Shown piece after piece: positions 4,952 through 26,521 of a stretch of DNA of 32,487 bases; the first letter of the stretch is position 1, and each line of letters starts with the position of its first letter. Location: positions 1 through 32,487 of IMG/VR virus record IMGVR_UViG_3300028840_003855; one strand, given 5' to 3'. The stretch comes from a virus. The translations under genes were made by a program, and so were the position numbers. The notes beneath the pieces are model-generated. The model had not been told where the DNA came from, made no database searches, and saw only the letters and a list, made by a program, of their open reading frames with translations.

Positions 4952-7284
4952 TGGGCATCATTAGTAGTCCAAGCAATGGCAAAGGCTCTGGTACGGCAAT
5001 AACTCCAAACAGAGCTGACAGATTTATGGGGGCAGTAAGGAGCCTTTTCAATATTACCCCATCCTCTTCTGTAGTGGAGCTAGAGGAAGCTTCAAAGAAG
5101 CCCAAGGAAGTTACTGCCCACCCAGAGTCAGCCCGACTGGAGTATGGCAAGGTGACCAGGCCTGGTGGGAGTAAGGAGTGGAATGCCCCCGAATTTGACT
5201 TCAGTAAGATAGCCAAGTGTCTGGCCTCAGAGGCGTTCTTCCGGAGGATAGTTGATAAGTACATAGAGCTAATATGGAGGAACGGATACAGGATTAGTGG
5301 GGATAACCCCACCTCTACCAGTTACGTAATTGAGAGGCTGCGGCAGATGGCTATGGTTACCAGGACTCCCACTGATAAGTTCCTGAGGGAACTCACTCAG
5401 CAGGTGGTGACTTATTCCAACTGCTTTGTGGAGAAGGTGAGGAATGAGGATGCATCTGGGGGTAGAGTAAGGACTACCTTTGATGGTAAGGAGCTGAAAC
5501 CTGTTGCTGGGTACTTTGTGGTGGATGCTACAGGTATAAGGGTGGCTAAGAGGAAGAATGGAAGGGTAGAGAAGTACAAGCAGGTAAGGATAAGGGCTGC
5601 GGAGAAAGAGCCTGAGTGGAGACCGGAGGATATGATCCACATAGTAAAGGATAGGGAAGCAGGACTTACATTTGGCACTCCCATGGTAGCCCCGGTAATA
5701 GACGACATTCAGGCCCTCAGGAGGATAGAGGAAAATGCTGAGATGCTTGTCTTCAACCATGCTATTCCCCTCTATCAGTACTTAGTTGGGGACGATCTTA
5801 ACAGGCCATCCCCGGAGGCAATACAGAAGGCCAAGAGCACAGTCAGGCAGATGACTACAGATGGGATGCTGGTAACTCCCTACTACCATGAGGTAAGGGC
5901 AATTGGCGCCGAGGGAAGGGCGCTAAGGCTGGAGGGAATACTTGACCACTTTAAGAATAGGGTCTTTGCTGGCCTTGGTGCCAGTGAAGTTGCACTTGGA
6001 TACTCTGGTACGGCAAGTAGGAGCACTGCAGAGGCATTAGAGAGGGGCATGTTTAGCACTGTAAGGGAATTTCAGAATGTCCTTAAGACCGCAATACAGG
6101 AGGAAATTATAGCTGAGTTATTGATGGAAGGCGGATTTGACCCATCAGTTGAGTCCATAGAGTTTGCTTTCCCGGAAATTGATATTGATGATAGGATCAA
6201 GGAAGAGAACCACATTATTAACCTGTATAATGGAAACCTTATTACTGAGTCAGAGGCCAGGCTCCTTATGGGTAAGGATCCAATTAAACCTGAGCAGAGA
6301 AGTGACATGTTCTTCTGGAAGGTAGAGGTAATAAGGAATGTAATAAGGGCCGTGGATGAGCCCTTCCTCCTCAGTAACCCAGGCATCCTCAAGGGTATTA
6401 CCAAGGATCTGAGTGGGCGGATGGCATCTGTTAAGTCATTAGACATGCCAAGCAATCAATATGGAACCAAGATGGCCCCTGGCACATATAAGGACTCTGC
6501 CGCACTTACTACCCCTGTCCTGCAGGAGGTTGGAGTGGAAGTGGTAACTGACGAAATTACAGTGGAGGCAAGTAGGCTCCTTGAATCCCTTAACTATCAG
6601 GACTATGTAGCGGCCCTGAGGAGGAGATACAGGACAGCGGAGGATGATGCCAGGAAGCTCATAAGGGAGAGGTATGTTGATGGCATAGAGGACAGCAGGA
6701 ATGGAAATGGATACAGGGTAATTGACTCCCTCAGGGACTTTGATAAAGGCAGAATGGATATGATCCTGGATCTGACACTTGATGAGATGCTCAAGGACTC
6801 TGCCGGTTATGTCCTTCCAGCCTTCATGGCTGGAGTAGAGGATGCCTGCAGGCAATTAGGGGTGCAGAGTATAGCCTATAACTACTCTACTGATAGTACC
6901 TACCTTGCGGAGCAGTCCAGGAAGTGGCTTAGCTCCGCCTTCAGGGACCTTAAGTCCTCTGCAGAGGGGATAGTCAGGACCACATATGATAAGAAGGATG
7001 CAGAGGGCGCAATTGGTAGTGCCTTCGATTCCAATTACTATAGAATAAGACTGGGTGGTAGGAATGAGTTACAGAGGGCATTTAACATTGGTACATTCAG
7101 GGGAGGTCTCTTCCTGGGGGCTACTAAGTTCTCCATATCCCACTTCCCATTTGATTCGGATGGCAAGTGCCGGGTACATGAGGGCAAGGCATATGAGATA
7201 GGTCCTGATACGGATCTGGCGGCAATACCTCCTGGGTATATGACTCATCCACTATGCACTTGTAGAGTAAAGTTAATGAGGTAA
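4951..7284 (+). CDS. Portal protein fused to a MuF-like head-morphogenesis domain
   Basis: 777 residues. The GTG start overlaps the preceding TAG and follows a GGGGGG-containing ribosome binding site. Residues about 60-430 read like a phage portal (DUF935/SPP1-type style), with a central segment EDMIHIVKDREAGLTFGTPM and a later region with SRSTAEALERGMF. The C-terminal part has the pattern of the SPP1 gp7/Mu gpF minor-head family: DSDGKCRVHEGKAY, then PPGYMTHPLCTCRVKLM at the extreme C-terminus. Portals form the dodecameric DNA channel, and MuF proteins are minor internal head proteins that are usually separate. Here they are one chain with no stop between them. Next gene 14 nt downstream. 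Confident for portal, fairly confident for the fusion. Confidence 0.85.
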   Translation: MGIISSPSNGKGSGTAITPNRADRFMGAVRSLFNITPSSSVVELEEASKKPKEVTAHPESARLEYGKVTRPGGSKEWNAPEFDFSKIAKCLASEAFFRRIVDKYIELIWRNGYRISGDNPTSTSYVIERLRQMAMVTRTPTDKFLRELTQQVVTYSNCFVEKVRNEDASGGRVRTTFDGKELKPVAGYFVVDATGIRVAKRKNGRVEKYKQVRIRAAEKEPEWRPEDMIHIVKDREAGLTFGTPMVAPVIDDIQALRRIEENAEMLVFNHAIPLYQYLVGDDLNRPSPEAIQKAKSTVRQMTTDGMLVTPYYHEVRAIGAEGRALRLEGILDHFKNRVFAGLGASEVALGYSGTASRSTAEALERGMFSTVREFQNVLKTAIQEEIIAELLMEGGFDPSVESIEFAFPEIDIDDRIKEENHIINLYNGNLITESEARLLMGKDPIKPEQRSDMFFWKVEVIRNVIRAVDEPFLLSNPGILKGITKDLSGRMASVKSLDMPSNQYGTKMAPGTYKDSAALTTPVLQEVGVEVVTDEITVEASRLLESLNYQDYVAALRRRYRTAEDDARKLIRERYVDGIEDSRNGNGYRVIDSLRDFDKGRMDMILDLTLDEMLKDSAGYVLPAFMAGVEDACRQLGVQSIAYNYSTDSTYLAEQSRKWLSSAFRDLKSSAEGIVRTTYDKKDAEGAIGSAFDSNYYRIRLGGRNELQRAFNIGTFRGGLFLGATKFSISHFPFDSDGKCRVHEGKAYEIGPDTDLAAIPPGYMTHPLCTCRVKLMR

Positions 7285-10196: not shown

Positions 10197-11333
10197 ATGC
10201 CGAAATTGAATTTTAATACACAGACAACTAAGAGGCAGCCCATAAGGACTGCCCCTACCAAGTTCCTTAGCAGCAAGACCAGGCCGCATGTGGAGGTTAG
10301 TGAGGGCATTCACCTTCCGGATCCATTCCTCCCCTATAAATGCCTGCCGGTACAGTGGATAGATGTGGAAACCTCTGATGCTGTGGTCATTGGTAAGGGG
10401 ACGATAGTCAGTCTCCTTACCAATCAGACTGAGACCGGGACTACCCCCTCTGGTATAGTCAATATAGCCAGCAGTGGTACCATTCCAGTCTTTGAGGATG
10501 CTACGGTTGCAAGCTCTATGATAGTAGCCAGCAACATAGATAGTAGCTTCTTTGGCTACGAGGACTCTATAGCAGGTCTTCTGGTGCCATGTAATGGAGG
10601 TATTCAGCAGAGGATACCCTATAGTGCCAGCGACGCAACAGTTGGCACCTTTACCTGTAGTGGTCTGGTAGTAACTGATGCAATGGGAGCGGATCCTGAG
10701 TCCAACTTCTGTCTTATAGACGGCAATATGCCCATTGGTATGGTATATGAGGACGTTTACCAGGACTTAAGGGGTAAGCACCTCAATTACAACCTGTGGG
10801 AGAGTTGGGGGGTCTGCTGTGATTTCTATATTGAAGTACCATTTGTAGACTTGGAATTGGTGAGCAGCTTCACCTCTGGCTATGTGGCCGCAGTGGATAT
10901 GCATCCATATAACCTTAATGCGACTACATGTGCCGGGTATCTGGCCACTTATAAGAAGTATCCATTCCTATACTTCTATGGTACAGCTACCTATAGAGAT
11001 GGCTCGGCAGGACAGATCCTTAAGAGTGACATGAACGGCAAGTTCATCCCCCAGGGCACTGGGACTAGCCTTACTAATGCAGCTACTGCTCAGACAGTAG
11101 GTAGGCTGGTCCTGACTGACTCCAGATATCCCAAGGACATGCTGGAGCTGGTAGATACTTACCCCGGGAGCAAACTGCCTGGTACTGAGACTGGTGGTCT
11201 GCCCAAGGTACTGTTTGACTTCATACAGGATGCTGAGTATGGTATTAATGGCTCATATCCAAGTATTGCGTCTACAGTTAACCTGGTGCAGAACGGGCAT
11301 TATGGAATGGCCCACATTCAGCTCCAGGTTTAG
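10197..11333 (+). CDS. Head-module structural protein, unidentified (378 aa)
   Basis: The ATG follows a strong AGAGGAGGT. The protein is rich in Gly, Thr, Ser and Tyr and appears beta-rich, with an N-terminal basic segment (about residues 1-30) and no signal peptide or membrane segment. It lies between the protease/scaffold gene and the major capsid gene, 46 nt before the latter, a slot often held by decoration or secondary capsid proteins. It is not itself the HK97-type capsid protein, which is encoded next. Function inferred from position only. Confidence 0.7.
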   Translation: MPKLNFNTQTTKRQPIRTAPTKFLSSKTRPHVEVSEGIHLPDPFLPYKCLPVQWIDVETSDAVVIGKGTIVSLLTNQTETGTTPSGIVNIASSGTIPVFEDATVASSMIVASNIDSSFFGYEDSIAGLLVPCNGGIQQRIPYSASDATVGTFTCSGLVVTDAMGADPESNFCLIDGNMPIGMVYEDVYQDLRGKHLNYNLWESWGVCCDFYIEVPFVDLELVSSFTSGYVAAVDMHPYNLNATTCAGYLATYKKYPFLYFYGTATYRDGSAGQILKSDMNGKFIPQGTGTSLTNAATAQTVGRLVLTDSRYPKDMLELVDTYPGSKLPGTETGGLPKVLFDFIQDAEYGINGSYPSIASTVNLVQNGHYGMAHIQLQV

Positions 11334-11379: not shown

Positions 11380-11554
11380 ATGGATAAAGGGAATAAGGAC
11401 CTACAGATATTCAGAAGGGTGTACAGCGCCTTCACTAACAATGGCTATGTGGTGGATGATGAGTCCCCCACCGGCTTTAGTGATGAGCCTATGCTGATCA
11501 ATGACCTTCTGGTGCAGGCTGACCTCACCAGGTTCGATATGAGCCTCCTACTGT
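11380..11554 (+). other. Capsid exon 1
   Basis: 175 nt encoding the N-terminal arm, ending DMSLLL plus one base of a split Phe codon (T|TT). The 5' splice site follows T11554. The last seven exon bases CTACTGT (11548-11554) pair with GCAGTAG (11561-11567), ending in U.G. Confidence 0.85.
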
Positions 11555-14500
11555 AGTAATGCAGTAGTGTAACTCCACTGTATGCTGGAAAGCCCAACCA
11601 CTTCTGTGGGGGTAATCAGCAGGTAACTTAAGATAGCAAGTAAGGGGCATTCAATATGATGCAGAAGAAGACGTTAGAAAAGGAGTACTACAATAACAAG
11701 CTAACCCAAGCTGAGATAGCTGATAAGTATGGAATATCAAGGAATACTGTTATTGAGTACTTCAGGAAATATGAACTAAGTCCCCTGAAACCCTATGAGA
11801 GAAATGGTACACAGGAACTAACGCCCCACCAAAACGAGTTCATGGTGGGTACAATGTTAGGAGATGGATGTTTACTAGTGGCTAAGAATGGAACGAATGC
11901 ATGGCTGACTGTTAAGCACTCATATGAGCAGTTACCCTACGTGGAATGGAAGTATGATATTATGAAGTCTTTTGCTGGATGTGATATCAAACATTGTGAT
12001 GACTATGCACATGGCAAGTTATACAGGAAGGCATATTTCAGAACAATATGTCACCCAGTATTTACTGATCTCCATAATACATTCTATGACAATGGGGTAA
12101 AGGTAGTGACCAATGAGATAGTCTCTATGCTGACGCCATTTAGTATAGCTGTATGGTTCATGGATGATGGTACCAGGAGTAGGAACCACCTGGAGTTTGC
12201 GACCCACTCATATACACCCCCAGAGCTGGAGAGGCTACAGAAGGTACTTAGACGTAAGTTTAATGTGCATACCTCCCTCTGGTTTGCCCAGTATAGGAAG
12301 GGTAGCAATCAGAAGATGTTTAAGATAGGCATTCTGAAGAGAAGTGTTGGTGACTTCATATCTATCATTAAGCCATACATGATACCATCTATGATGTACA
12401 AGATTGAGCCATTACTCTCAGGAACCTCAGAGACTAGATGTGGAGCCCCAGCAGTGCTGGGAGAAGATATAGTCCAAACCCTGTAAGAAATACTGCGAAA
12501 GCAGGGGTAGTAATTGTTATACCGACAACTGTACAGACCATTGTGAGGGAGGCATTGGAGCCAGCCCTCCTGATTGTGCCTAATATGTTTCAGACAATCA
12601 ATCTGACTCAGGGTAGGCACGTTCAGATAGGGGCGGTAGGTGCCATGGTTGCCCGGGAGATACCGGAGACCTCAGAGTATCCAACCCAGGACCTTGATAT
12701 TGATGGGGGTATGGAAATTGCCCCGACTAATTCCACTATATGCTGGAAAGCCCAACCACCTGTGTGGGGGTAATCAGCAGGTAACCCAAGATGAGCCAGT
12801 AGGCGGGCAATCGGAGGTAGTAATGAAGGAAGCAACTCTTAGAAAGGAATATTTTGATAACCAGCTCACTATAATGGATATAGCTGAGAAATATGGTAAG
12901 GGATATTCTACTGTAAACTACTACTTCAAGAAGTATGATATAAGTCCCCTAAAGCCTCATGAGCGGATGGATGTACCAGACTTAAGCAATGAGCAAAGGT
13001 CATTCCTCATTGGTACAATGCTCGGTGATGGGTCATTGGAATTGGCCCATACCGGTATGAATGCAAGACTTCATGTAGAGCATACAGTAGACCAGGTTGA
13101 TTATGTGATATGGAAGCATCATCTTATTAAGCCCTTTGTTACCGGCCCTGTAAAGTACAGGGAAAGGAGTAGGAAGGGTAATAAGTCGATAATGTGTGGA
13201 TTTCGCACAGTATCACATCCAATCTTTACTGACCTACATAGAATGTTCTATGATGCAGGGGTAAAGGTAGTGACCAATGAGATAGCCAGGGAGCTTACAC
13301 CAATGGCATTAGCTGTATGGCTTATGGATGATGGAAGTAAGAATGGGAACTCAACCATTTTTTGTACCCATTCATTCACAAGGCCGGAGTTAGAGAGATT
13401 GCAGAGTGAACTCTCTGGTAAGTTCAAGATAAATACAACTCTTCAAGCTGCTGGACATAGAAAGGGTAGTAATCAGAAGATGTACAACATCTATGTACTC
13501 AAGAACAGCATGGAGAGACTTGTTGAGCTATTGAGACCTTATGTCATTGAACCGATGCAGTATAAGCTGGAACCATCACTAGGGAACCTCAGAGGCCATA
13601 CGTGGAACCCCAATGGGGAAGATATGGTCCAAGCCCTTCAAATACTGTGATAAGCAGGGGTACTAACTGGATATAATTGCCTTCTCAGTAGCCAAGCACG
13701 GACTTCAGCTCCGGGTTGGTGATGAGACTATAAGAGAGAGTCAGTGGGACGTCAATTCTGAAGGCGTCGGCTGGTAGGGATACCAGCAATAATAAATGTG
13801 GCTTACATCAGTGAAGCCTAAGGGACTAAATGAGTCCTATGGTAATACTGAGGGGTTCCAATAGGGGCCCTGCAGAGACTCTTAGTTAATACTAAGGATA
13901 GGTAGTGCATGTAGTAAATATAGGTTACCTATAACACGCCACACACCTAGAACAGGTGAAGATATAGTCCAAACAACATAGAAATATGTTGGGTAATAAG
14001 CTTCGGAATGTGGTTAGACATTAGCCACTCTATACAGCAATGTATGGTAACTAAGTGGATGAATTCAGGGGAAGCCCTACCGGATAGTGCCGGGGGTAAC
14101 CCTGAGCCAAGCCTGGATGAGGGTAAGGTATCCAGGAAGGTGCAACGCACAGCCAGTGAGGCCTCAACAATAACCTGGCCAAGAGCTTCCACCAGCCTAC
14201 TGGGCTGAAGAGATGTGCTGGACTATACAGTAATGTGTAGAGCCATAGGATAAAAAGCCTATGGGGTAACAATTCGTAAGAGCAGCCGGCCGTGCTTGAT
14301 TGATAGGGCTCGGCTTAAAACTAACGCTACTATATGCTGGGACGAACTGAATGAGCTGGTACTTGGGCACAGAACCCCCCAAGTAATAAACCAAGCTATG
14401 ATACAGTCAATCAGCAGGGAAGATGGGTGGAATTGATGGTACACAATAGGATACATAGGAATGATTACTTTTTCAGTAAATGGAGTGTAGATATGGCATA

Positions 14501-16225
14501 CGTACTAGGGTTTACAACAGCAGATGGATGTATCAAGGATACTACTGAGCTTGCGTACATTGTCCATGAGAATGATGTGGATGTGCTGGAGTATATCAAG
14601 AATGCCATGGACATGGATCATAGGATATATGACCATAATTATGGGTATGGCTTTAAGGGTAGTGGGAAGTACAAGAGGTTAGCACTAAAGTCCAAGAGGA
14701 TGAAGGCTGACTTGGAACTCCTTAATGTTACTCCCAGAAAGACATATACAATAACTCTACCTCCAATGATTCCTTCTGACATGCAGGGTCACTATGTAAG
14801 AGGTTACTTTGATGGTGATGGTTCTATTAGCCTATACAATAACAACAAGCAACTCACTGCTATAGTGGGTATGAAGACAGCTAGTGAGGTTTACGCTAAG
14901 CAGCTGGGGCAGTTGCTTGAGGGTAATGGAATTAAGACTAAGGTTTACAACAGACCATCAAAGGAAATGAAGTATGTTGATCTATACGAGCTTAGGGTAG
15001 CTAGTAGATCAATACCTGACTTTGGGGACTTTATGTACAAGGACGCTCCTTTCTACCTGGAGAGGAAGTATGAGAAGTTTCAAGCACTCTATGCAGGTAG
15101 GTTTGATAACTGCCTGATATGCAACACCAAGTTCTATAGGAAGAGAATTGGTGGAAGCTTCTGTGAGGGTTGTACTAAACTAGTGAATAACCAGCATGTC
15201 AATGAGATAGCGTCAATTACCGGCATTCCCTCAGAGGTCATACGTAGTGCTTGTGTTAAGGAGAATGTAGGGAGCATTAACTATGCATCCCTCAAGGAAC
15301 TTATTAGCTCCTATCACAAGAAGATATGATCCGAACTAGTGGGAGACTACTAGCAAACAACTTGCTATCACGCCACAAGGAAAATAGAGCAGCCAAGCTT
15401 CTCAATGAGTTTGGCTATAGGGTCATGGACAATGTTAGCCCTAGTACTGTTGCTGATCCTACAATGTATGGGTCAACTTCAGGAAGGGATATCACTGGAG
15501 CATTCAATGGCTCCATGACTGCCAATGACATATTTGATCTCTACACCTGGCTGGCAATGAGGGGTTTCACCCCTGATACACTACTGATCCACCCCCTGGC
15601 CTGGCGTACATTTTTATGTGACGCAGAGGTAAGGGAGGTAGTCCTAAAGGGCAATGTCCTTGCTACCCGGAGGCTTCCTCAGGGAACCTATAGTCCCGGC
15701 TGGGGTACCAGCCATGAGGGCAAGGGACTGAGGACTACTGCCACTGGTAGAGGGACAGCTACAGGGTATGGTACCGGGCCGGACACAGTCCTGGGTAAGA
15801 TAGGAGCAAACCCATGGACCAGTGATCTGAACCCATTAGCTGCTACGTTTAACATAGCACCACAGTACTTACCCAGTCCCTTGTCGGTATTGGTGTCCCC
15901 CTATGTACCATATAGCAGGGGCGCCGCCGTCATTAGCAGTGGGAGTCCTGCAGTTAGCAGGAGCTACCCAACTACTTCCGTCATAATGGCTGACTCTTCA
16001 GCCTGTGGTATCCTTGTACAGAGGGACCCAGTTTCGGTTGAGGAGTATGATGATCCTCCGAGGGACATCAGGGCTATTAAGATAATGGAGCGTTGGGGTA
16101 TGCACCTCCTGGAGCAGGGTAAGGGCGTAGCTGTTGCAGAGAATATTACCATAGCCAGGAATTATGTCTTTGATAATTCTAATGTGGTAACACTGCAGCC
16201 GTATAGTAGGACTACTGTAATTTAA
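11380..16225 (+). CDS. Major capsid protein (HK97 fold), split into six exons by five group I introns
   Basis: Predicted exons are 11380-11554, 12517-12710, 13670-13752, 14001-14014, 14277-14296 and 15365-16225, totalling 1347 nt (448 residues plus TAA). Joined, they restore a continuous protein that reads like HK97-type capsid proteins of this phage group: IPTTVQTIVREALEP (exons 1/2), LQLRVGDETIRESQWDV (exon 3), FGMWLRAAGRALSRHKE (exons 4, 5 and 6), then TANDIFDLYTWLAMRGFTPD and TLLIHPLAW. Each junction keeps frame, each 5' exon ends in T, and each intron ends in G. Unspliced, exon 1 meets TAG immediately and no exon encodes a usable capsid protein. It starts with GGGAGG about 12 nt upstream of ATG 11380. 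It forms the icosahedral shell after proteolysis by the upstream protease. Confidence 0.92.
11555..12516 (+). ncRNA. Group I intron 1 of the capsid gene (962 nt, with endonuclease gene)
   Basis: All core elements are visible. P1 is CTACTGT/GCAGTAG. P3 is TCCAC (11574-11578) with GTGGA (12440-12444). The P segment TATGCTGGAAA (from 11581) pairs with the Q segment TAATCAGCAGG (around 11613-11623) as P4. R is CTCAGAGACTA (from 12426) and S is AAGATATAGTCC (12464-12475), giving P7 GACTA/TAGTC. P8 is CCAGCA/TGCTGG (12448-12460) and P9 is CCCTG/CAGGG (12479-12506). The terminal G is 12516. The 3' end aligns with that of intron 2. The endonuclease gene lies between Q and R and extends through R and S. 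Confidence 0.88.
11656..12486 (+). CDS. LAGLIDADG homing endonuclease with N-terminal HTH (intron 1)
   Basis: 276 residues from ATG 11656, with a second ATG next to it and AAGGGG upstream. Residues about 6-45 form a helix-turn-helix segment (LTQAEIADKYGISRNTVIEY). The two LAGLIDADG motifs are at 62-71 (FMVGTMLGDG) and about 164-172 (IAVWFMDDG), so it is a single-chain monomeric type that should cleave the intron-less capsid allele. The last 20 or so codons (TSETRCGAPAVLGEDIVQTL) are read from the R, P3', P8 and S ribozyme elements, so protein and ribozyme constrain each other. It is a close paralogue of the intron 2 enzyme. Confidence 0.9.
   Translation: MMQKKTLEKEYYNNKLTQAEIADKYGISRNTVIEYFRKYELSPLKPYERNGTQELTPHQNEFMVGTMLGDGCLLVAKNGTNAWLTVKHSYEQLPYVEWKYDIMKSFAGCDIKHCDDYAHGKLYRKAYFRTICHPVFTDLHNTFYDNGVKVVTNEIVSMLTPFSIAVWFMDDGTRSRNHLEFATHSYTPPELERLQKVLRRKFNVHTSLWFAQYRKGSNQKMFKIGILKRSVGDFISIIKPYMIPSMMYKIEPLLSGTSETRCGAPAVLGEDIVQTL
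12517..12710 (+). other. Capsid exon 2
   Basis: 194 nt encoding the second part of the split Phe codon and then IPTTVQTIVREALEP through DLDIDGG. It ends after T12710: GGGGT (12706-12710) pairs with GCCCC (12720-12724) to form P1 of intron 2. The codon is complete at the junction. Confidence 0.85.
12711..13669 (+). ncRNA. Group I intron 2 of the capsid gene (959 nt, with endonuclease gene)
   Basis: P1 is GGGGT/GCCCC. P3 is TCCAC (about 12732-12736) with GTGGA near 13602. The P/Q pair TATGCTGGAAA and TAATCAGCAGG is almost identical to intron 1. R is CTCAGAGGCCATA (near 13586) and S is AAGATATGGTCC (13619-13630), with the P7 changes compensating (GGCCATA/TATGGTCC). P8 is CCCCAATGGGG. The intron ends at G13669 in TAACTG, matching TAATTG at the end of intron 1. 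The endonuclease gene lies between Q and R and runs through R and S. Confidence 0.88.
12823..13650 (+). CDS. LAGLIDADG homing endonuclease with N-terminal HTH (intron 2)
   Basis: 275 residues from ATG 12823, chosen because GGAGG lies 5-6 nt upstream and the N-terminus then aligns with the intron 1 enzyme. The open frame extends upstream to 12640, but that part lies in exon 2 out of the capsid frame. HTH at about 5-42. LAGLIDADG motifs at 61-70 (FLIGTMLGDG) and 163-171 (LAVWLMDDG). Shared segments with the intron 1 enzyme include GVKVVTNEIA and RKGSNQKMYNI. The last 25 or so codons are read from the R, P8 and S elements of the ribozyme. Confidence 0.9.
   Translation: MKEATLRKEYFDNQLTIMDIAEKYGKGYSTVNYYFKKYDISPLKPHERMDVPDLSNEQRSFLIGTMLGDGSLELAHTGMNARLHVEHTVDQVDYVIWKHHLIKPFVTGPVKYRERSRKGNKSIMCGFRTVSHPIFTDLHRMFYDAGVKVVTNEIARELTPMALAVWLMDDGSKNGNSTIFCTHSFTRPELERLQSELSGKFKINTTLQAAGHRKGSNQKMYNIYVLKNSMERLVELLRPYVIEPMQYKLEPSLGNLRGHTWNPNGEDMVQALQIL
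13670..13752 (+). other. Capsid exon 3
   Basis: 83 nt encoding DIIAFSVAKHG through ESQWD and two bases of a Val codon (GT|C). The 5' splice site follows T13752; GACGT (13748-13752) pairs with GCGTC (13764-13768). Confidence 0.85.
13753..14000 (+). ncRNA. Group I intron 3 of the capsid gene (248 nt, ORF-less, IA-like)
   Basis: P1 is GACGT/GCGTC with U.G. P10 is GAAG (13760-13763) with CTTC at the start of exon 4 (14001-14004). P2 is GCTGGTA GGGA TACCAGC. P4 is TCAGT/ACTGA. R is GCAGAGACT and S is AAGATATAGTCC (about 13960). P3 is GTGGC/GCCAC. Two hairpins lie between R and P3' (CTTAGT/ACTAAG and TATAGG/CCTATA), which is the P7.1/P7.2 arrangement of subgroup IA. P8 is CACCT/AGGTG and P9 is CAACAT/ATGTTG. 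It has no ORF. It is the most completely folded small intron here, so it should self-splice. Confidence 0.88.
14001..14014 (+). other. Capsid micro-exon 4 (14 nt)
   Basis: 14 nt: the last base of a Val codon, Phe-Gly-Met-Trp, and the first base of a Leu codon. It is bounded by the P10-supported end of intron 3 and by P1 of intron 4, where GTGGT (14010-14014) pairs with GCCAC (14024-14028). All 14 bases must serve both as codons and as intron-recognition sequence. Confidence 0.78.
14015..14276 (+). ncRNA. Group I intron 4 of the capsid gene (262 nt, ORF-less, IC3-like core)
   Basis: P1 is GTGGT/GCCAC with U.G. P2 is CTATACA GCAA TGTATGG (14030-14047). P4 is TTCAGGG with CCCTGAG; the segment AACCCTGAGCCAAGCC and the R-like GGAAGGTGCAACGCACA are very like cyanobacterial and proteobacterial tRNA introns (IC3). 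P7 is GCACA/TGTGC. P9 is CTATACA GTAA TGTGTAG (14223-14240), with a further hairpin CCATAGG/CCTATGG (14243-14264). P2 and P9 both carry GNRA loops. It ends at G14276. P10 is three pairs (TAA/TTA). I could not assign P3 convincingly, so the fold is less complete than in its neighbours. Confidence 0.75.
14277..14296 (+). other. Capsid micro-exon 5 (20 nt)
   Basis: 20 nt that complete a Leu codon and encode Arg-Ala-Ala-Gly-Arg-Ala. Together with exons 4 and 6 this gives FGMWLRAAGRALSRHKE, a segment typical of this capsid family. No other reading of the region restores it. It ends at T14296, where GCCGTGCT pairs with GGCTCGGC (14307-14314) with one internal mismatch and a terminal U.G. Confidence 0.8.
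14297..15364 (+). ncRNA. Group I intron 5 of the capsid gene (1068 nt, with endonuclease gene)
   Basis: P10 is a perfect six-pair match: TGATAG (14301-14306), next to the guide sequence, with CTATCA at the start of exon 6 (15365-15370). P3 is CGCTAC (about 14325) with GTAGTG (about 15246). P4 comes from TATGCTGGGA and CAATCAGCAGGG. R is CTCAGAGGTCATA (about 15233) and S is AAGATATGATCC (about 15320-15332). A hairpin around CTAGTGGGAGACTACTAG is a probable P9. It ends at G15364. The endonuclease ORF occupies the region from Q to S. Confidence 0.85.
14427..15329 (+). CDS. LAGLIDADG endonuclease with C-terminal CxxC zinc-like motif (intron 5)
   Basis: 300 residues from GTG 14427 (AGGGA 7 nt upstream); ATG 14436 is an alternative start. 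LAGLIDADG motifs at 25-34 (YVLGFTTADG) and 123-132 (YVRGYFDGDG). A C-terminal Cys set CLIC (229-232) and CEGC (246-249) suggests a zinc ribbon. It is followed by an HTH-like segment (HVNEIASITGIPSEVIRSAC, 257-276), probably an extra DNA-binding module. The TGA stop is formed inside the S element AGATATGATCC, and the R element is also coding. It is not close to the enzymes of introns 1 and 2. Confidence 0.88.
   Translation: MELMVHNRIHRNDYFFSKWSVDMAYVLGFTTADGCIKDTTELAYIVHENDVDVLEYIKNAMDMDHRIYDHNYGYGFKGSGKYKRLALKSKRMKADLELLNVTPRKTYTITLPPMIPSDMQGHYVRGYFDGDGSISLYNNNKQLTAIVGMKTASEVYAKQLGQLLEGNGIKTKVYNRPSKEMKYVDLYELRVASRSIPDFGDFMYKDAPFYLERKYEKFQALYAGRFDNCLICNTKFYRKRIGGSFCEGCTKLVNNQHVNEIASITGIPSEVIRSACVKENVGSINYASLKELISSYHKKI
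15365..16225 (+). other. Capsid exon 6
   Basis: 861 nt, beginning LSRHKENRAAKLL and encoding the rest of the HK97-type fold: STSGRDITGAFNGSM, NDIFDLYTWLAMRGFTPD, a P-domain-like DPVSVEEYDDPPRDIRAIKI and a C-terminal NVVTLQPYSRTTVI. TAA at 16223-16225. The open frame continues upstream to 15326, but that part is intron 5. Confidence 0.9.
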
Positions 16226-16329: not shown

Positions 16330-16722
16330 ATGGCACTAAGTAGTACAATAAGGAGTATGATAGACAGGACAGATGGGTTGAATGGTCCTGGTGATGGGGC
16401 AAGGGCCAATTACGTCTTCAGTGCGTCAGGCCTTGCCGCGGATGTGGCAAAGGTTCAGGCTGGGGATATATACCTGACGGGGGTGCATGAGACTACGGCC
16501 ACTGGCTACTTTCACTATAACTACCCCATTAATGCCATTCCCAGGGTACAGGTTTCATGGTACATTCAGCCATCCGGACTTGACATGTATATCTCAGCAT
16601 CAGGGGAGGATCACTTTGTAGTTTCCTTTGTTGATAGCAGTAATACTGCTACCCCCCCGTTCCATGATGATGACAATGACACAGTACCCGCAGTAGTAGC
16701 TACCTGGCTGGCAATAATATAG
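16330..16722 (+). CDS. Small structural protein A of a tandem paralogous pair
   Basis: 130 residues, ATG preceded by AAGGAGGT. It has no recognised family. Conserved with the next gene are SASGLAADV, a TATGYFHYNYPIN segment, PSGLDMYISASGEDHFVVSF and the C-terminal WLAII. It is compact, Gly/Ser/Thr/aromatic-rich and probably beta-structured. Placement just after the capsid gene suggests a decoration or cement protein, or a head-fibre base; that is inference. The Asp-rich loop near residues 112-118 (DDDNDT) could bind metal. Confidence 0.8.
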   Translation: MALSSTIRSMIDRTDGLNGPGDGARANYVFSASGLAADVAKVQAGDIYLTGVHETTATGYFHYNYPINAIPRVQVSWYIQPSGLDMYISASGEDHFVVSFVDSSNTATPPFHDDDNDTVPAVVATWLAII

Positions 16723-16737
16723 AAAGGAGGCTGGGTG

Positions 16738-17103
16738 ATGGCACTTAGCAGTTCAACCCCAACTACAGCAGCTGTAACCAAGAAGAGAGCTGGGTATGTA
16801 TATGGCGCATCTGGCCTTGCTGCTGATGTGATGAGGTACCAGGCCGGGGAGCTATATGTAGATGCCATTAACGAGGTAACTGCTACTGGTTTCTTTAAGT
16901 ACAACTACCCAATTAACCTGATACCTAGGATAATGACCACCTGGCAGGTTAGCCCAAGTGGCCTTGATATGCGTATCTCTGCATCTGGTGAGGATCACTT
17001 TGTCGTATCATTTATTAATAGCTCAAATGCTGCCGCTTCACCAGTGATAGATCCACTGGTAACTACACCACACCATGTTGGTAGCTGGTTGGCGATACTA
17101 TAA
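16738..17103 (+). CDS. Small structural protein B of a tandem paralogous pair
   Basis: 121 residues. The start at ATG 16738 is preferred over GTG 16735 because MALSSS then aligns with MALSST of the upstream paralogue and AAGGAGG has better spacing. Shared blocks are ASGLAADV, TATGFFKYNYPIN, IPRI, PSGLDMRISASGEDHFVVSF and WLAIL. The pair arose by tandem duplication and then diverged, mainly at the N-terminus and in the loop before the C-terminal strand. Function as for its neighbour. Confidence 0.8.
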   Translation: MALSSSTPTTAAVTKKRAGYVYGASGLAADVMRYQAGELYVDAINEVTATGFFKYNYPINLIPRIMTTWQVSPSGLDMRISASGEDHFVVSFINSSNAAASPVIDPLVTTPHHVGSWLAIL

Positions 17104-17147: not shown

Positions 17148-17786
17148 ATGAGGAGGATTGTTAATATGGAAGATAAACTAAATGAGGAAGGCACAGATTC
17201 AATTAATCCCTTGGTGCTTGATGGCCCAAATACTGAGCCCATTAAGCCAAGGGAGGTGCCGCCCCCGGGCAGGGGAATGACTTATGACAAGGATTCCCTC
17301 CCGGCCTTTGTGAGGATCAATCCAAAGGAAGCAGGAATGTTTGATGATTCAGAGCTTAGTGGGTTGAGGCTAACCCAGTGGGGGTCGAACTATGGTCCTG
17401 TGCCAAAGGATAAGGACTGCAGCAGGATAGCCAATGCACTTGGAAGGGGTATCCTGGTGGTATGCAACCCCAAGGGACAGTCAAAGCTAATTGATGACAC
17501 CCCATTAGCCTCTGTGAAGGAGATAGATAAAGTCATGGCGAACAATGCCAGGGAGATAATAACCCTTGCAGAGTCAATTACAAGTGCGCCCGTAATAGAG
17601 GCAATGATAGAGTGGGAACTTAACAGGCCAGATAGAAGGAAGAGGAGAGGGGTAGTGGTCAGTGCATTGAGGGAGAGGCTGGCAAGTCCCAACGTCTCAG
17701 GACTTTCAACTATCAGAGAAGAGCAGTCAATGATCTATGACAAGGAAAGGAAACAAATGGTGGACGATACTATAACTATTCGCTAA
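17148..17786 (+). CDS. Unidentified connector-region protein (212 aa)
   Basis: It starts at ATG 17148 (GGAGGGGG about 9 nt upstream) or at ATG 17166, which has AGGAGG 9 nt upstream; both fit. The N-terminal 45 residues are Pro/Glu-rich and probably disordered. The rest is mixed, with a helical, charged C-terminal half containing ELNRPDRRKRRGVV. It is followed 11 nt later by the Ig-domain protein. I do not recognise a family. Placement between capsid and connector genes suggests a head-completion or internal protein. Confidence 0.7.
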   Translation: MRRIVNMEDKLNEEGTDSINPLVLDGPNTEPIKPREVPPPGRGMTYDKDSLPAFVRINPKEAGMFDDSELSGLRLTQWGSNYGPVPKDKDCSRIANALGRGILVVCNPKGQSKLIDDTPLASVKEIDKVMANNAREIITLAESITSAPVIEAMIEWELNRPDRRKRRGVVVSALRERLASPNVSGLSTIREEQSMIYDKERKQMVDDTITIR

Positions 17787-17797
17787 GCTGGGAGGTA

Positions 17798-19252
17798 TTG
17801 AATTATTTGGGTTATGATACTGGTAGACCTTATGTTAAGAGTACTATACCGGCGGCAAATGCCTCTGGCGTAGCTATATCCTCTCTCCTGGTAGTACAGT
17901 TTAGTGAGAGGATGGATGAGTCTACCATTGACTCTGATACTATCAGACTCTACATGGACCCCATGAGTGGGGTACCGAACCTCACTCTAACCTATACTGA
18001 CTCCCTTAATCTTCTTACTATTGACCCGTCGGGTAATATGGAGGTCAATAGCAGGTACTATGCGGTAGTAGATGGGGATATAGAGGACTATTATGGCAAT
18101 AAGCTCCAGCAGGACTACTGGTGGCAATTCTGGACCGCCACCCCCAGCGGATACGTCTACTCCTCAGGTGTACAGCCCCAGTTTCCCGCTACCACAAGGG
18201 AAGGATACCTTGAGGTAACTGATACCCTTCCCAGGAACTATACCAGCAATCTTGGCACTGGCTCAGTATCACCCATATTAGTATACTTGAATGATGAATG
18301 TGAGATTGGTAATAGGAACTTCCTCGGAACGGCATCAGGCTCTGTGCCTCCTGCCGCTATTGGCTCCGCATGGTTTGAAGACCCCCAGGTATCACTAAGT
18401 GGATATGTAAGTATTGCTAACCAGGAGGTGCTGGGCGACCCTGGTGTAACCCATACAGCCCCAACCTACTCCCTTCATCCATCTGGGGATATAATAAGGA
18501 TAGATGGTACAGGCTGGCTTAATAATAATGAATACATAGTTACAGTGGAGGAAGGCCTTCCAGGCTTGAACACCTACCCCCTTAAGGAGGACTATCAGTT
18601 TGTCTTCACTACCACCTACAGTCCCATCTACGCAGGGCCTAACATAATAAGACTTAATATAGGTCCAATGCTTGCCATGGTAATGACGTATATACCTGAT
18701 GATACTATCAGGAGGTTTATATATGAGGCTTCTAAGCAGGCCGATAGGCTCTATCCATCAGTAATAGATCCTAACAATGTGCCATGGTACGTTACTGAGT
18801 TTGTAATCTACCAGAGTAAGATCAGTGGTCTCTATGCGGCTATGCTCATCTTTGCTGGCGGAGGGGCTGGGGTAAGGAAGAGGCTTGGCGACCTTGAGAT
18901 AGAGCATGACGCCAGGGGCCTAATGCCGGTATTACTGCCTATCCTTGAGGACTACACTGAGAGAAGGGATGAGGCAGAGGATATGGTCAAGGACGGCACT
19001 GATGCTGGAATTGGACCTGACTGGGCGATACTACATGAGTATGACCCCAGGAGGCCCATTACTGCGGCTTCATGGACCAGGCTACCATTCAGGGACCTGA
19101 GGAAGACGGAGGCCATAGGCCCTGGTGGAACCAGGGAGGAGCCAATGACTGATGCCCTGATACCATGGATCTATGCGGCCGACCTTAGTGGAGGAGCTTA
19201 CATTGGCACAAGCAGCAGGTTCCTTCCTGTAGGAAGGTATGTTACTACATAG
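17798..19252 (+). CDS. Virion protein with N-terminal SbsA/Big_5-type Ig-like domain
   Basis: 484 residues from TTG 17798. GGAGG is only 2 nt away, so TTG 17807 with an 11-nt gap is an alternative. Residues about 10-115 read as a bacterial Ig-like (Big_5) domain: STIPAANASGVAISSLLVV, QFSERMDESTIDSDTIRL, YYAVVDGDIEDYYGNKL and a closing WWQFWTA. A second, looser Ig-like repeat spans about 140-275, ending YQFVFTTTYSP. The remaining 200 residues are mixed alpha/beta and probably the part that joins the virion. Such Ig domains usually decorate the virion surface. Role in the neck or head fibres is inference. Confidence 0.75.
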   Translation: MNYLGYDTGRPYVKSTIPAANASGVAISSLLVVQFSERMDESTIDSDTIRLYMDPMSGVPNLTLTYTDSLNLLTIDPSGNMEVNSRYYAVVDGDIEDYYGNKLQQDYWWQFWTATPSGYVYSSGVQPQFPATTREGYLEVTDTLPRNYTSNLGTGSVSPILVYLNDECEIGNRNFLGTASGSVPPAAIGSAWFEDPQVSLSGYVSIANQEVLGDPGVTHTAPTYSLHPSGDIIRIDGTGWLNNNEYIVTVEEGLPGLNTYPLKEDYQFVFTTTYSPIYAGPNIIRLNIGPMLAMVMTYIPDDTIRRFIYEASKQADRLYPSVIDPNNVPWYVTEFVIYQSKISGLYAAMLIFAGGGAGVRKRLGDLEIEHDARGLMPVLLPILEDYTERRDEAEDMVKDGTDAGIGPDWAILHEYDPRRPITAASWTRLPFRDLRKTEAIGPGGTREEPMTDALIPWIYAADLSGGAYIGTSSRFLPVGRYVTT

Positions 19253-23589: not shown

Positions 23590-23722
23590 ATGGCAACGCA
23601 ATTAGAGACATATACCAGGACCTTCACCTCCTTTAGTGGGGCGGATATCCAGGCTGTCCTGGGTAATGTCCAGATAATGGAGATGCAGGGAGTGAGTTAC
23701 AGTGTAACCAGAGAGAAGGTGT
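23590..23722 (+). other. Tube exon 1
   Basis: 133 nt, MATQLETY through REKV. Without splicing it ends at TAG 23722-23724 after 44 residues. GGGAGGT lies upstream. An ATG further upstream (23476) opens the same frame, but it overlaps the promoter and terminator and is not credible as the start. Confidence 0.75.
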
Positions 23723-26493
23723 AGTCAGTATACCAAGATTACTAGAGGAGATAAGCAATGGGTAAGAGGAAGAAATGGAGGCCATCGGAGATACAGCTAA
23801 TTAAAGATAGCTATGGTGTAGTGCCACTTGCTGATATAGCATCAAGGTTGGGAAGAACTATATCTTCCGTATCTCATAAGATAGCTAAGTTAGGACTTGA
23901 CGATCCAAGACAATGGACACCATTTGAGGATAGGATACTTATAGCCAATTACGAGTACAACCCGGATGTGTGGGGGCTACTTCCTGGCAGGTCAAGAGCC
24001 GCTGTAACCCAGAGAGCAGCTAAGGTGTTCAACCTTTCTAGGAAGTGTGGTAACTATTCCATTAATTGGAGGTTCTTTGATGCCATCAATCATGACTCAG
24101 CATACGTACTGGGCTTTATAGCTGCTGATGGTTGCATTGAGCCAGGGCTAAATAGGCTTAGTATATCTCAGGCAGCTACTGAGGCAGACATTCTCTACTC
24201 TATCAGGGAAGCAATGGGATCCTCTAACCCTATATGCTTCAAGAATGCCAGGAATGAGGCTGCTATCTATATACACAACAGGCATATAGTAGATATACTA
24301 GAGAGCTTGGGTATAGGTAGCAATAAAACCCTTAGGGGTACTTTTCCGGAAATGGAACCAGAATTTGAGCCAGATTTTATTAGAGGTTTATTTGATGGAG
24401 ATGGTAGTATTTACATACCGTCTGACAATAGATCTGGCCGGATTCAGTTTCTTGGCTCTCATAACATGCTTACTCAGCTAAGGTTTAGATTGATTGGTGT
24501 TGGGTGTAGCAGCAGACCTGAGGTAAGGAAAAGGCAGGTTAATACCCATATTCTTTCCTACTCATCAAATGATGATCTTCTTAGGCTGTACAACTACATG
24601 TACAAATACCCAGGTATTATGATCCAACACAAGGCTCAAACTTTTGGGCTAGTAGTCAGAAGTATATTGGATAAGGTGCCTTCACCAGAGGCGGAAGCCC
24701 TGGGAGAATTTACCCAGCTCAAATCAGGGAAACCCCTAAGGGGGCAATCCTGAGGGTAAGGCAGCACAATGTGCTGATCAGCCCGCAGAGACTACACGCT
24801 GGGCCCCACACACGTGGGTGATGGTATAGTCCAATCCTCACAGTAATGTGAGAGTCAGGATATTATCTTGACAAAGCGCCAATATACACTCTTGGATCTG
24901 CCGATCCAAGGTCATTTAGCAGAGGTATTTAATCTTGCCTCTTAATCCTACTCAATTCGGTGGAAGTCCCTATGGATAACACCGAGGCTAAGTTAGCTGA
25001 TAAGCTAAATGCCGTACAGACTGGAGTAGATATGTATAAGTACAATGAAGAGTTACTAAGGGGAGATTCAGAATTCAAGTACTACTTCTTAGGACTCCTG
25101 GCAGCTGACGGGTACGTTAGCAGTAAGTCCAATAGGTTAGAAATAGCCCTCAAGGAAGATGATGTTGCTCTGCTCAGAGTTCTTTCCACTACAATTGCTC
25201 CAGGAAAGCCTCTGAGATATAGGCAGAAGCTAAAGGCATATACGCTTACAGTAGAGAGCAAAGCTATTCATGAGGTTGTGGAACTCTACATGTGTACAGG
25301 CCAAAAGAGCATAAATCTCATTTTCCCATATGGAATACCCGACCAATACATTAACCATTTCATTAGGGGATACTCCGATGGAGATGGAAATGTAGGTGTC
25401 AAGAGGGGACAAAGGAAGCTTAAGACTGGTGAGATGAAATATTACTATGGTCTAAGGTACAGGATACTGGGTACTAGACCATTCCTCCAGGGGCTTCACA
25501 TGAATTTGAGGAGACTGTGTGGATTAAAGCACAATGCTCGCCCTCATAGGAAAGGCACTGAGAATGTATATTATATAGAGTATGGGTTTTCAGCAGCGGA
25601 GAAGGTGCTGGATTTCTTGTATAAGGATGCAACCTATTATCTGTATAGAAAGAGAAGGGTATATGAACATATCAAGAACTCTGATAGCAGCGACCTAGGA
25701 AGGGTCTATGGGACACCAGAAGGCTGCTATAATACGTAGGAAGCTACATTGTAGCTAAGGTATAGTCGAACCACCTAGTAATAGGATGGACTAATGAAGA
25801 GAGGTATAGCCGGGTCCATTGTTTTTACAATCTTTGACAGAAACCCTCTTACTGCACTTAGTAAGGACACCAGGGCAATCTGGTATTACTATGCTAAGAC
25901 AGGAGATCTGAGGGAGCCGGCTAATTATTCTGAGGAAGTGGCAGAGCAGATGCTTGATAGGACTGGCATGCCACTTGGAATAGAGAAGAGGCCACCTATA
26001 TATGATGATCAGGTGTTACCTTTTGATATAACAATTACTGCCCAGAATGAGTATGGGAATGCGGCCGTCAAGAGGATATACGGAGTGGAGATACTCAACT
26101 CTGGAGCAGGTATTAGTGTAGATGATATAGTCAATAAACCAGCTCACTTGTTGACTCTAAATCCTGCTGTATGCTGGAAACCCCTAAAGACATCCAGTAC
26201 CCCCCAGGGTGACAATCTGGTGTATGATACAATGGGCAATCAGCAGGGAAGGGCATCCGGCCCAACTTGGCCGGGGAGTAACCCCCCTCAGAGGCCATAC
26301 GCAGGAAGCCACCTCGGCTAAGATATGGTCCGAACTAATGGGTGACCATTAGCTAACATAATTGGAGAGCCAGGCAACCTTTGTTGCCCGGTCATTGAGC
26401 AACTGGATACCTATAGACGTGAGGGGTGCAAATGACCCCGGCTCCCTCGTATGGAATAGGGAGTTTGAAAGGTTGAATAATCCGGCAGGATAA
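23590..26493 (+). CDS. Tail-tube-like protein, split into four exons by three group I introns
   Basis: Predicted exons: 23590-23722, 24877-24926, 25797-26135, 26365-26493 (651 nt, 216 residues plus TAA). The joined product begins MATQLETYTRTFTSFSGADI and continues through VSYSVTREKV, SPIYTLGSADPRSFSRG, KRGIAGSIVFTIFDR, a GISVDDIVN|ESQATF junction and ARSLSNWIPIDVRG. The pattern FSGADI, SYS.REK, RxIAGSI.FT.FDR recurs in the next gene. Placement directly after the sheath indicates tail tube or a tube-related baseplate protein. Junctions 2 and 3 are firm. The first (REKV|S) is uncertain by a few nt, because homologous segments have one residue rather than two between REK and P. Confidence 0.85.
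23723..24876 (+). ncRNA. Group I intron A of the tube gene (1154 nt, endonuclease gene in the P1 loop)
   Basis: The guide sequence is far from the 5' splice site: GTGCCTTC (24676-24683) pairs with exon GAAGGTGT, so the endonuclease gene lies inside L1. P2 is CCAG(A)GGC GGAA GCCCTGG (24685-24703). P3 is CCCAGC (24713-24718) with GCTGGG (24798-24803). P4 is TCAGG/CCTGA. R is GCAGAGACTA (24785-24794) and S ends in TAGTCC (24827-24832). P8 is CCCAC/GTGGG, P9 is CTCACA GTAA TGTGAG, and a last hairpin is GTCAGGAT/ATCTTGAC. Exon 2 CCAATAT can pair with ATATTGG (24664-24670) as P10. The end is put at G24876, uncertain by about 2 nt. Confidence 0.8.
23758..24753 (+). CDS. LAGLIDADG endonuclease with two N-terminal SANT/Myb-like repeats (tube intron A)
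   Basis: 331 residues, ATG with GAGGAG 7 nt upstream. Residues about 5-48 (WRPSEIQLIKDSYG) and 53-93 (WTPFEDRILIANYEYN) look like two tryptophan-led Myb/SANT-type helical repeats, an unusual N-terminal DNA-binding arrangement for this enzyme class. LAGLIDADG motifs at 116-125 (YVLGFIAADG) and 207-216 (FIRGLFDGDG). The last 25 or so codons (through FTQLKSGKPLRGQS) are read from the P1 guide, P2, P3, P4 and P5 elements, so this gene overlaps the 5' half of the ribozyme core. Confidence 0.88.
   Translation: MGKRKKWRPSEIQLIKDSYGVVPLADIASRLGRTISSVSHKIAKLGLDDPRQWTPFEDRILIANYEYNPDVWGLLPGRSRAAVTQRAAKVFNLSRKCGNYSINWRFFDAINHDSAYVLGFIAADGCIEPGLNRLSISQAATEADILYSIREAMGSSNPICFKNARNEAAIYIHNRHIVDILESLGIGSNKTLRGTFPEMEPEFEPDFIRGLFDGDGSIYIPSDNRSGRIQFLGSHNMLTQLRFRLIGVGCSSRPEVRKRQVNTHILSYSSNDDLLRLYNYMYKYPGIMIQHKAQTFGLVVRSILDKVPSPEAEALGEFTQLKSGKPLRGQS
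24877..24926 (+). other. Tube exon 2 (50 nt)
   Basis: It encodes PIYTLGSADPRSFSRG, a segment missing from the flanking ORFs but expected by comparison with the paralogous gene at 26522. The 3' end is firm: AGAGGT (24921-24926) pairs with GCCTCT (24937-24942), ending in U.G. Confidence 0.82.
24927..25796 (+). ncRNA. Group I intron B of the tube gene (870 nt, endonuclease gene in P8 region)
   Basis: P1 is AGAGGT/GCCTCT. P10 is TCTT (24933-24936) with AAGA at the start of exon 3 (25797-25800). P3 is CTACTC (24948-24953) with GAGTAG (25024-25029). P4 is TCGGTG/CACCGA, P5 is TCC/GGA and P6 is GCTAA/TTAGC. P7 is GACT (near 25020) with AGTC in the S segment GGTATAGTC (25759-25767). The core from P3 to P3' is packed into about 85 nt, and the endonuclease gene fills the P8 side. 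It ends at G25796. Confidence 0.85.
24972..25739 (+). CDS. LAGLIDADG homing endonuclease (tube intron B)
   Basis: 255 residues from ATG 24972; GTG 24960 would add four. LAGLIDADG motifs at 38-47 (YFLGLLAADG) and later FIRGYSDGDG. No extra N-terminal DNA-binding domain is visible. The first 20 or so codons (MDNTEAKLADKLNAVQTGVD) are read from the P5', P4', P6, P7 and P3' elements, so the protein start and the ribozyme core share sequence. The stop lies before the hairpin AGCTAC/GTAGCT that precedes S. Confidence 0.87.
   Translation: MDNTEAKLADKLNAVQTGVDMYKYNEELLRGDSEFKYYFLGLLAADGYVSSKSNRLEIALKEDDVALLRVLSTTIAPGKPLRYRQKLKAYTLTVESKAIHEVVELYMCTGQKSINLIFPYGIPDQYINHFIRGYSDGDGNVGVKRGQRKLKTGEMKYYYGLRYRILGTRPFLQGLHMNLRRLCGLKHNARPHRKGTENVYYIEYGFSAAEKVLDFLYKDATYYLYRKRRVYEHIKNSDSSDLGRVYGTPEGCYNT
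25797..26135 (+). other. Tube exon 3
   Basis: 339 nt from KRGIAGSIVF to ISVDDIVN. The 5' splice site of intron C follows T26135: AGTCAAT (26129-26135) pairs with GTTGACT (26150-26156), seven pairs with a terminal U.G. Unspliced, the frame stays open through most of intron C to 26321, giving a false C-terminus. Confidence 0.85.
26136..26364 (+). ncRNA. Group I intron C of the tube gene (229 nt, ORF-less)
   Basis: P1 is AGTCAAT/GTTGACT. P3 is CCTGC/GCAGG. The P segment TATGCTGGAAACC pairs with the Q segment CAATCAGCAGGG as P4. R is CTCAGAGGCCATA (about 26288) and S is AAGATATGGTCC (about 26320-26331), giving P7 GGCCATA/TATGGTCC. P8 is AGCC/GGCT. P9 is CTAATGG GTGA CCATTAG (26335-26352) with a GNRA loop. 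It ends at G26364. Its P, Q, R and S sequences are close to capsid introns 1 and 2, so it may be an endonuclease-free relative. Confidence 0.87.
26365..26493 (+). other. Tube exon 4
   Basis: 129 nt encoding ESQATFVARSLSNWIPIDVRG through LNNPAG and TAA. The paralogue at 26522 has KTCSFVARDIDMIRP at the same place, which supports the junction. Confidence 0.83.
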
Positions 26494-26521
26494 TACTGTC
26501 AGCTAGGTAGGAGGAGTAGTA

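Follow-up and report, generated by a model that had tools for sequence, protein, structure and literature searches.

Five mobile group I introns appear to have entered the major capsid protein (MCP) gene of an uncultured myovirus-type phage; they would be spliced out to give one 442-codon frame for a protein with the HK97 fold. The probability of this reading is put at about 0.93. The analyzed window, a 32,487-base IMG/VR virus record, is a single metagenomic contig and represents a fragment of a genome, the rest of which may hold a second MCP gene. It contains a late module with terminase, portal, a protease-similar gene, a conserved upstream gene, the MCP gene, and tail genes including the sheath; the MCP gene follows the portal and protease-like genes, and the tail sheath gene located 3' of it marks the phage as a myovirus type. 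Six exons (154, 194, 83, 14, 20, and 861 nt) and five introns (983, 959, 248, 262, and 1,068 nt) make up the gene on the plus strand at positions 11380 to 16225 (Table 1). The exons sum to 1,326 nt, or 442 codons with the stop, and the introns sum to 3,520 nt, ∼73% of the gene transcript. The statement of the initial annotation that the lengths add up exactly to the gene span (4,846 nt) is borne out, as is its figure of about 3.5 kb of intronic sequence.

Table 1. Exons, introns, and intron-encoded genes of the MCP gene, and putative introns of the tail-tube-like gene, in window coordinates
Feature	Coordinates	Strand	Evidence and remarks
MCP exon 1	11380..11533	+	154 nt, last bases ACCAGGT; gapless against intronless MCPs; same site used in L006 and L062
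Intron 1, group I with endonuclease gene	11534..12516	+	983 nt; P3/P4/P7 covariation with relatives; weak Rfam match; site occupied in L006 and L062
LAGLIDADG_2 homing endonuclease gene, intron 1	11656..12486	+	Pfam PF03161, 1e-38; 3' end overlaps ribozyme core (from 12425)
MCP exon 2	12517..12710	+	194 nt; homolog alignment
Intron 2, group I, paralog of intron 1	12711..13669	+	959 nt; 65.8% identity to intron 1; held-out 3'-half model 69.3 bits; covariation
LAGLIDADG_2 endonuclease gene, intron 2	12823..13650	+	likely ATG start; Pfam PF03161, 4.5e-42; 49% identical to intron 1 endonuclease
MCP exon 3	13670..13752	+	83 nt; homolog alignment
Intron 3, ORF-less group I	13753..14000	+	248 nt; Rfam Intron_gpI 54.6 bits, above gathering
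MCP exon 4, micro-exon CTTCGGAATGTGGT	14001..14014	+	14 nt; codes F-G-M-W, matching homologs
Intron 4, ORF-less group I	14015..14276	+	262 nt; Rfam Intron_gpI 47.0 bits, E 6.4e-10, just below gathering score of 50
MCP exon 5, micro-exon TAAGAGCAGCCGGCCGTGCT	14277..14296	+	20 nt; codes L-R-A-A-G-R-A, matching homologs
Intron 5, group I with endonuclease gene	14297..15364	+	1,068 nt; held-out model 22.9 bits, E 0.0014; P1, P3, P7, P8, and P10 placed; without Rfam match
LAGLIDADG_3 endonuclease gene, intron 5	14427..15329	+	Pfam PF14528, 2.6e-12; final codons overlap core P7-P8 (core from 15228)
MCP exon 6	15365..16225	+	861 nt with stop; 56 to 73% identical to relatives
Intron T1	ribozyme 24663..24853; endonuclease gene 23758..24753		58.8 bits
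Intron T2	24927..25796; endonuclease gene 24960..25739
Intron T3	26136..26364		without ORF; Rfam 50.5 bits at 26091 to 26352

The exon map is derived from the proteins of related phages and not from splice rules. In tblastn searches, these proteins place capsid pieces at positions 11398 to 11535, 12519 to 12722, 13670 to 13753, and 15329 to 16222. The six joined exons encode a 441-amino-acid protein with no internal stop, whose alignment is gapless at all junctions with the uninterrupted MCPs of the relatives L007 to L010, Moorella phage MTATph1, and Bacillus phage KLEB27-3. The peptide GMW|LRAAGRA|LSR, singled out in the initial annotation as spanning junctions, reads with the same residues in the homologs. 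Residues 97 to 244 of the joined protein, a region spanning four junctions, match the major-head family phrog_3922 (1.9e-12); the exon 6 ORF alone matches no Pfam or PHROG family. A predicted model of the intronless relative L009, of moderate confidence (mean pLDDT of 67.5), matches HK97-type capsids in the PDB, and its long helix at residues 144 to 173 is likely the counterpart of the spine helix. The phrog_3922 profile, the L009 model, and the gene position identify the product as an HK97-fold MCP, and the uninterrupted, in-frame HK97-type protein proposed earlier is recovered. Close relatives of the joined MCP were not found in GTDB genomes, nor were close relatives of the sheath found in IMG/VR.

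The 378-amino-acid gene directly preceding the MCP gene (positions 10197 to 11333) shows no PHROG family match. Relatives carry a similar-looking gene before the MCP gene, and the counterpart in KLEB27-3 is annotated as a "putative capsid protein." On the 3' side, two small adjacent genes of 130 and 122 amino acids (positions 16330 to 17103) look like tandem paralogs and perhaps encode head decoration proteins.

A comparison of 79 relative loci, some of which represent the same contig twice, shows a continuous MCP frame in nearly all of them. The nearest relatives of the window carry partly interrupted alleles. L006 (75% identical) contains intron 1 only and has exons 2 to 6 fused, while L062 contains intron 1 at the same site and a second intron at residue ∼232, a site that is empty in the window. 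Since nearly all frames among the relatives are continuous and those of L006 and L062 are partly interrupted, the introns represent insertions into an ancestrally whole gene. The MCP gene of L066 shows only a small gap and no intron-sized insertion. The residue ∼232 intron of L062 (positions 4416 to 5236 of that locus) carries a different, HNH-like ORF, which indicates that the same gene has been repeatedly invaded by different introns. Site 1 holds an intron in three phages, and most relatives lack one there; with the endonuclease gene of intron 1, these intron-plus and intron-minus alleles at one site give the sequence signature expected of a mobile group I intron.

The window is a single metagenomic contig, and five interruptions of an essential gene are extreme, which would suit a degraded or misassembled capsid gene without a product that gathered its insertions after function was lost. 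This explanation is very improbable, since frame and sequence are kept in all six exons, with a dN of 0.24 and saturated synonymous change against L006, a pattern of apparent purifying selection on the exons. Furthermore, the junctions are gapless, the endonuclease gene of intron 1 is intact and constrained, and intron 1 is shared with the two independent contigs L006 and L062.

All five introns are preceded by U and end with G. This rule by itself is weak evidence, as chance alone should provide one or two fitting combinations at each junction. P1 helices can be formed with AGGU/GCCU in intron 1, GGGGU/GCCCC in intron 2, GACGU/GCGUC in intron 3, GUGGU/GCCAC in intron 4, and GCCGUGCU/GGCUCGGC, with one U.U mismatch, in intron 5. 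In each, the U at the exon end lies within P1 and forms the U.G pair at the splice site, so that the earlier claim of a P1 with U.G and a terminal G applies to every intron. Both of the P10 pairings named there were located, GAAG/CTTC (4 bp) in intron 3 and TGATAG/CTATCA (6 bp) in intron 5; those of introns 1, 2, and 4 are short (3 to 5 bp). With mismatches disallowed, an equally good P1 is found at 9%, 1.7%, 2.7%, 2.7%, and 20% of the T sites in the window for introns 1 to 5, respectively. Taken singly, the P1 helices are just moderately rare, so that the homologs and the ribozyme cores carry the argument.

A hairpin of CTACTGT/GCAGTAG (positions 11548 to 11567), which begins 14 nt inside intron 1, outscores the real P1 of this intron. 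It was nevertheless rejected as P1, and CTACTGT was rejected as the end of exon 1. L006 has an in-frame TAG between exon 1 and the counterpart of this hairpin, and the homologs read TRF-IP at junction 1 with no residues between, where an end at CTACTGT would add extra residues; exon 1 therefore ends at position 11533, and intron 1, for whose junctions the initial annotation gives no coordinates, starts at position 11534. L006 retains a hairpin of this type with altered pairs, and the element would fit P2.

Each intron most likely leaves the primary transcript through the two-step, guanosine-started group I reaction. P1, built from the exon end and the internal guide, would set the 5' cut, and the terminal G and P10 would set the 3' cut, after which the six joined exons would form the single 442-codon frame for the HK97-fold protein. 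The sequence itself shows the exons, their frame, the ribozyme cores, the endonuclease genes, and the partly interrupted alleles of relatives. We infer splicing of the capsid mRNA from gene anatomy and homology; the order and efficiency of splicing, any need for factors, and current mobility are inferences as well.

Introns 3 to 5 lie within 12 codons, separated by exons of 14 and 20 nt, and likely sit where the codons of the spine helix begin. Three of five sites fall inside 34 nt in ∼2% of random placements. A general preference of the intron sites for the most conserved codons was also considered, but the signal is weak (p of about 0.08, with four independent places). In exon 4, the first four bases (CTTC) belong to the P10 of intron 3, and GTGGT, the last five, forms part of the P1 of intron 4, so that this exon carries pairing segments for both the preceding and the following intron. 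The last eight bases of exon 5 pair in the P1 of intron 5, and about three pair in the short P10 of intron 4.

Such an arrangement raises the question of whether micro-exons 4 and 5, or other exons, are mostly left out, making the normal capsid a minor product or splicing a regulated step. Exon skipping between group I introns has been reported for Twort and phage SIOphi (PMC11878797, PMC3073962), and introns 1 and 2 are alike enough to cross-splice. However, the loss of exon 2, 4, 5, or 4 plus 5 (194, 14, 20, or 34 nt) shifts the frame, so that efficient skipping would cost capsid, and exons 4 and 5 encode conserved residues; predominant skipping is therefore highly unlikely. A rather doubtful extension of orderly removal of all five introns is that the shared use of the micro-exons by P10 and P1 forces ordered, mutually dependent splicing that gates late capsid synthesis, while the intron endonucleases turn on co-infecting relatives whose capsid genes lack introns. 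If true, the capsid gene would be a weapon as well as a target.

Evidence for the conserved group I core (P3, P4, P6, P7, and P8) comes from different sources for different introns: Rfam for introns 3 and 4, covariation for introns 1 and 2, and a held-out model with located helices for intron 5. A structural search of each intron with group I models, the check named in the initial annotation, succeeds for intron 3, is near threshold for intron 4 and weak for intron 1, and fails for introns 2 and 5, which alone give no group I match in Rfam because their endonuclease genes split the cores. These split cores were handled by comparing the 5' and 3' halves, together with a covariance model for the latter. 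When introns 1 and 2 are aligned with intron 1 of L006 and L062 and with intron T3 of the tube gene, P3, P4, and P7 are 100% paired, with 8 of 16 pairs altered on both sides; none of 500 shuffles reaches the covariation score of this alignment. The 3'-half model, trained on T3 and on intron 1 of the window, L006, and L062, recovers the held-out introns 2 (E of 8.5e-14) and 5, ending exactly at the predicted positions 13669 and 15364, and finds no significant match in 19 intronless relatives. In intron 5, helices P3, P7, and P8 could be placed explicitly. With homologs supporting every junction and core evidence for every intron, the earlier proposal of five group I introns in the MCP gene stands.

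Introns 1, 2, and 5 still carry LAGLIDADG endonuclease genes according to Pfam, whereas introns 3 and 4 are ribozymes without an ORF. The 3' codons of all three endonuclease genes overlap the ribozyme core, as does the I-TevI gene in the td intron of T4 (PMC3073962). Introns 1 and 2 align across nearly their full length and encode related LAGLIDADG_2 endonucleases, which identifies one element family at two sites 194 exon bases apart; intron 2 is paralogous to intron 1 and occupies another site in this gene. The intron 1 endonuclease (dN of 0.15 and dS of 1.9) looks to be under purifying selection; its close relatives are confined to L006 and L062, with the next at ≤37% identity. For the endonucleases of introns 2 and 5, no close relatives were found in IMG/VR. 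LAGLIDADG genes are found in inteins and as free-standing insertions as well, but a reading of the interruptions as inteins, translational bypass elements, or free-standing endonuclease insertions is close to negligible in view of in-frame stops after exons 1, 2, 3, and 5, exons of 14 and 20 nt that cannot be separate proteins, the group I cores, and the lack of any Pfam intein domain in the three ORFs.

About three further group I introns interrupt a tail-tube-like gene of the phrog_9206 family (window positions 23590 to 26500), located after the sheath gene. For T1 (positions 23720 to 24880), a P1-like match of GAAGGT with GCCTTC at position 24678 and a 9-base exon match of GTATATTGG (position 24662) with CCAATATAC (position 24879) can be drawn. 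The splice sites so suggested would leave the joined frame one base short, which may reflect a sequence error or an unusual splice site. In L006, the tube-like gene (positions 18108 to 19084 of that locus) has a single group I intron, located at the T3 site; unlike the ORF-less T3 of the window, it contains a LAGLIDADG-type ORF that apparently lies in the P8 loop. A tandem repeat of ∼35 bases in the tube-like gene of L006 (positions 17630 to 17700) breaks the frame, through an assembly slip or a recent duplication.

Each MCP intron is an ordinary group I intron; the kind is known, and the count and the micro-exons are unusual. The initial description, in which five introns far exceed the usual one or two, goes too far, since three per gene have been published (PMC11878797, PMC3073962), as has a crAss-like MCP gene with four insertions (PMC7886860). 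Twort and Bastillevirinae contain three group I introns in one gene (PMC11878797, PMC3073962), which in Twort is orf142, reported to be a tail tube gene (PMC11878797), like the intron-split tube-like gene of the window. Twort orf142 and the DNA polymerase and terminase genes of Bastillevirinae resemble the MCP gene in their multiple group I introns, with exon skipping reported and a small exon between introns in phiNIT1, but have at most three introns, concern other genes, and show splicing experimentally, compared with the predicted splicing of the MCP gene (PMC11878797, PMC3073962). The MCP gene of the crAss-like Zeta-group cMAG OLRF01000054 (Yutin et al. 2021) is likewise split, into five ORF fragments; it differs in having four insertions, in splice sites and cores not resolved there, and in belonging to another phage order (PMC7886860). 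Mycobacteriophage LittleE shares an HK97-type capsid gene with a likely group I intron and an endonuclease ORF, although it has one intron, with splicing proven by RT-PCR and protein sequencing (PMC3706429). The HK97 MCP genes of mirusviruses are also intron-rich, with 4 to 22 introns in one family and homing endonuclease genes in some introns, but these are spliceosomal introns without group I signatures in viruses of eukaryotes (PMC12768974).

No phage gene with five introns was found in the open-licence literature searched, and the MCP gene, an essential late gene in which micro-exons of 14 and 20 nt separate introns, forms the densest case there. The phage must remove ∼73% of the MCP transcript before capsid building. 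Standard annotation can miss such intron-split capsid and tail-tube genes, as the largest MCP exon alone matched no Pfam or PHROG family. The same gene with zero, one, two, or five introns across relatives provides a natural series for studying the tolerance of capsid expression to introns, a possible fixed splicing order of adjacent ribozymes, and the possible spread of introns inside a gene.
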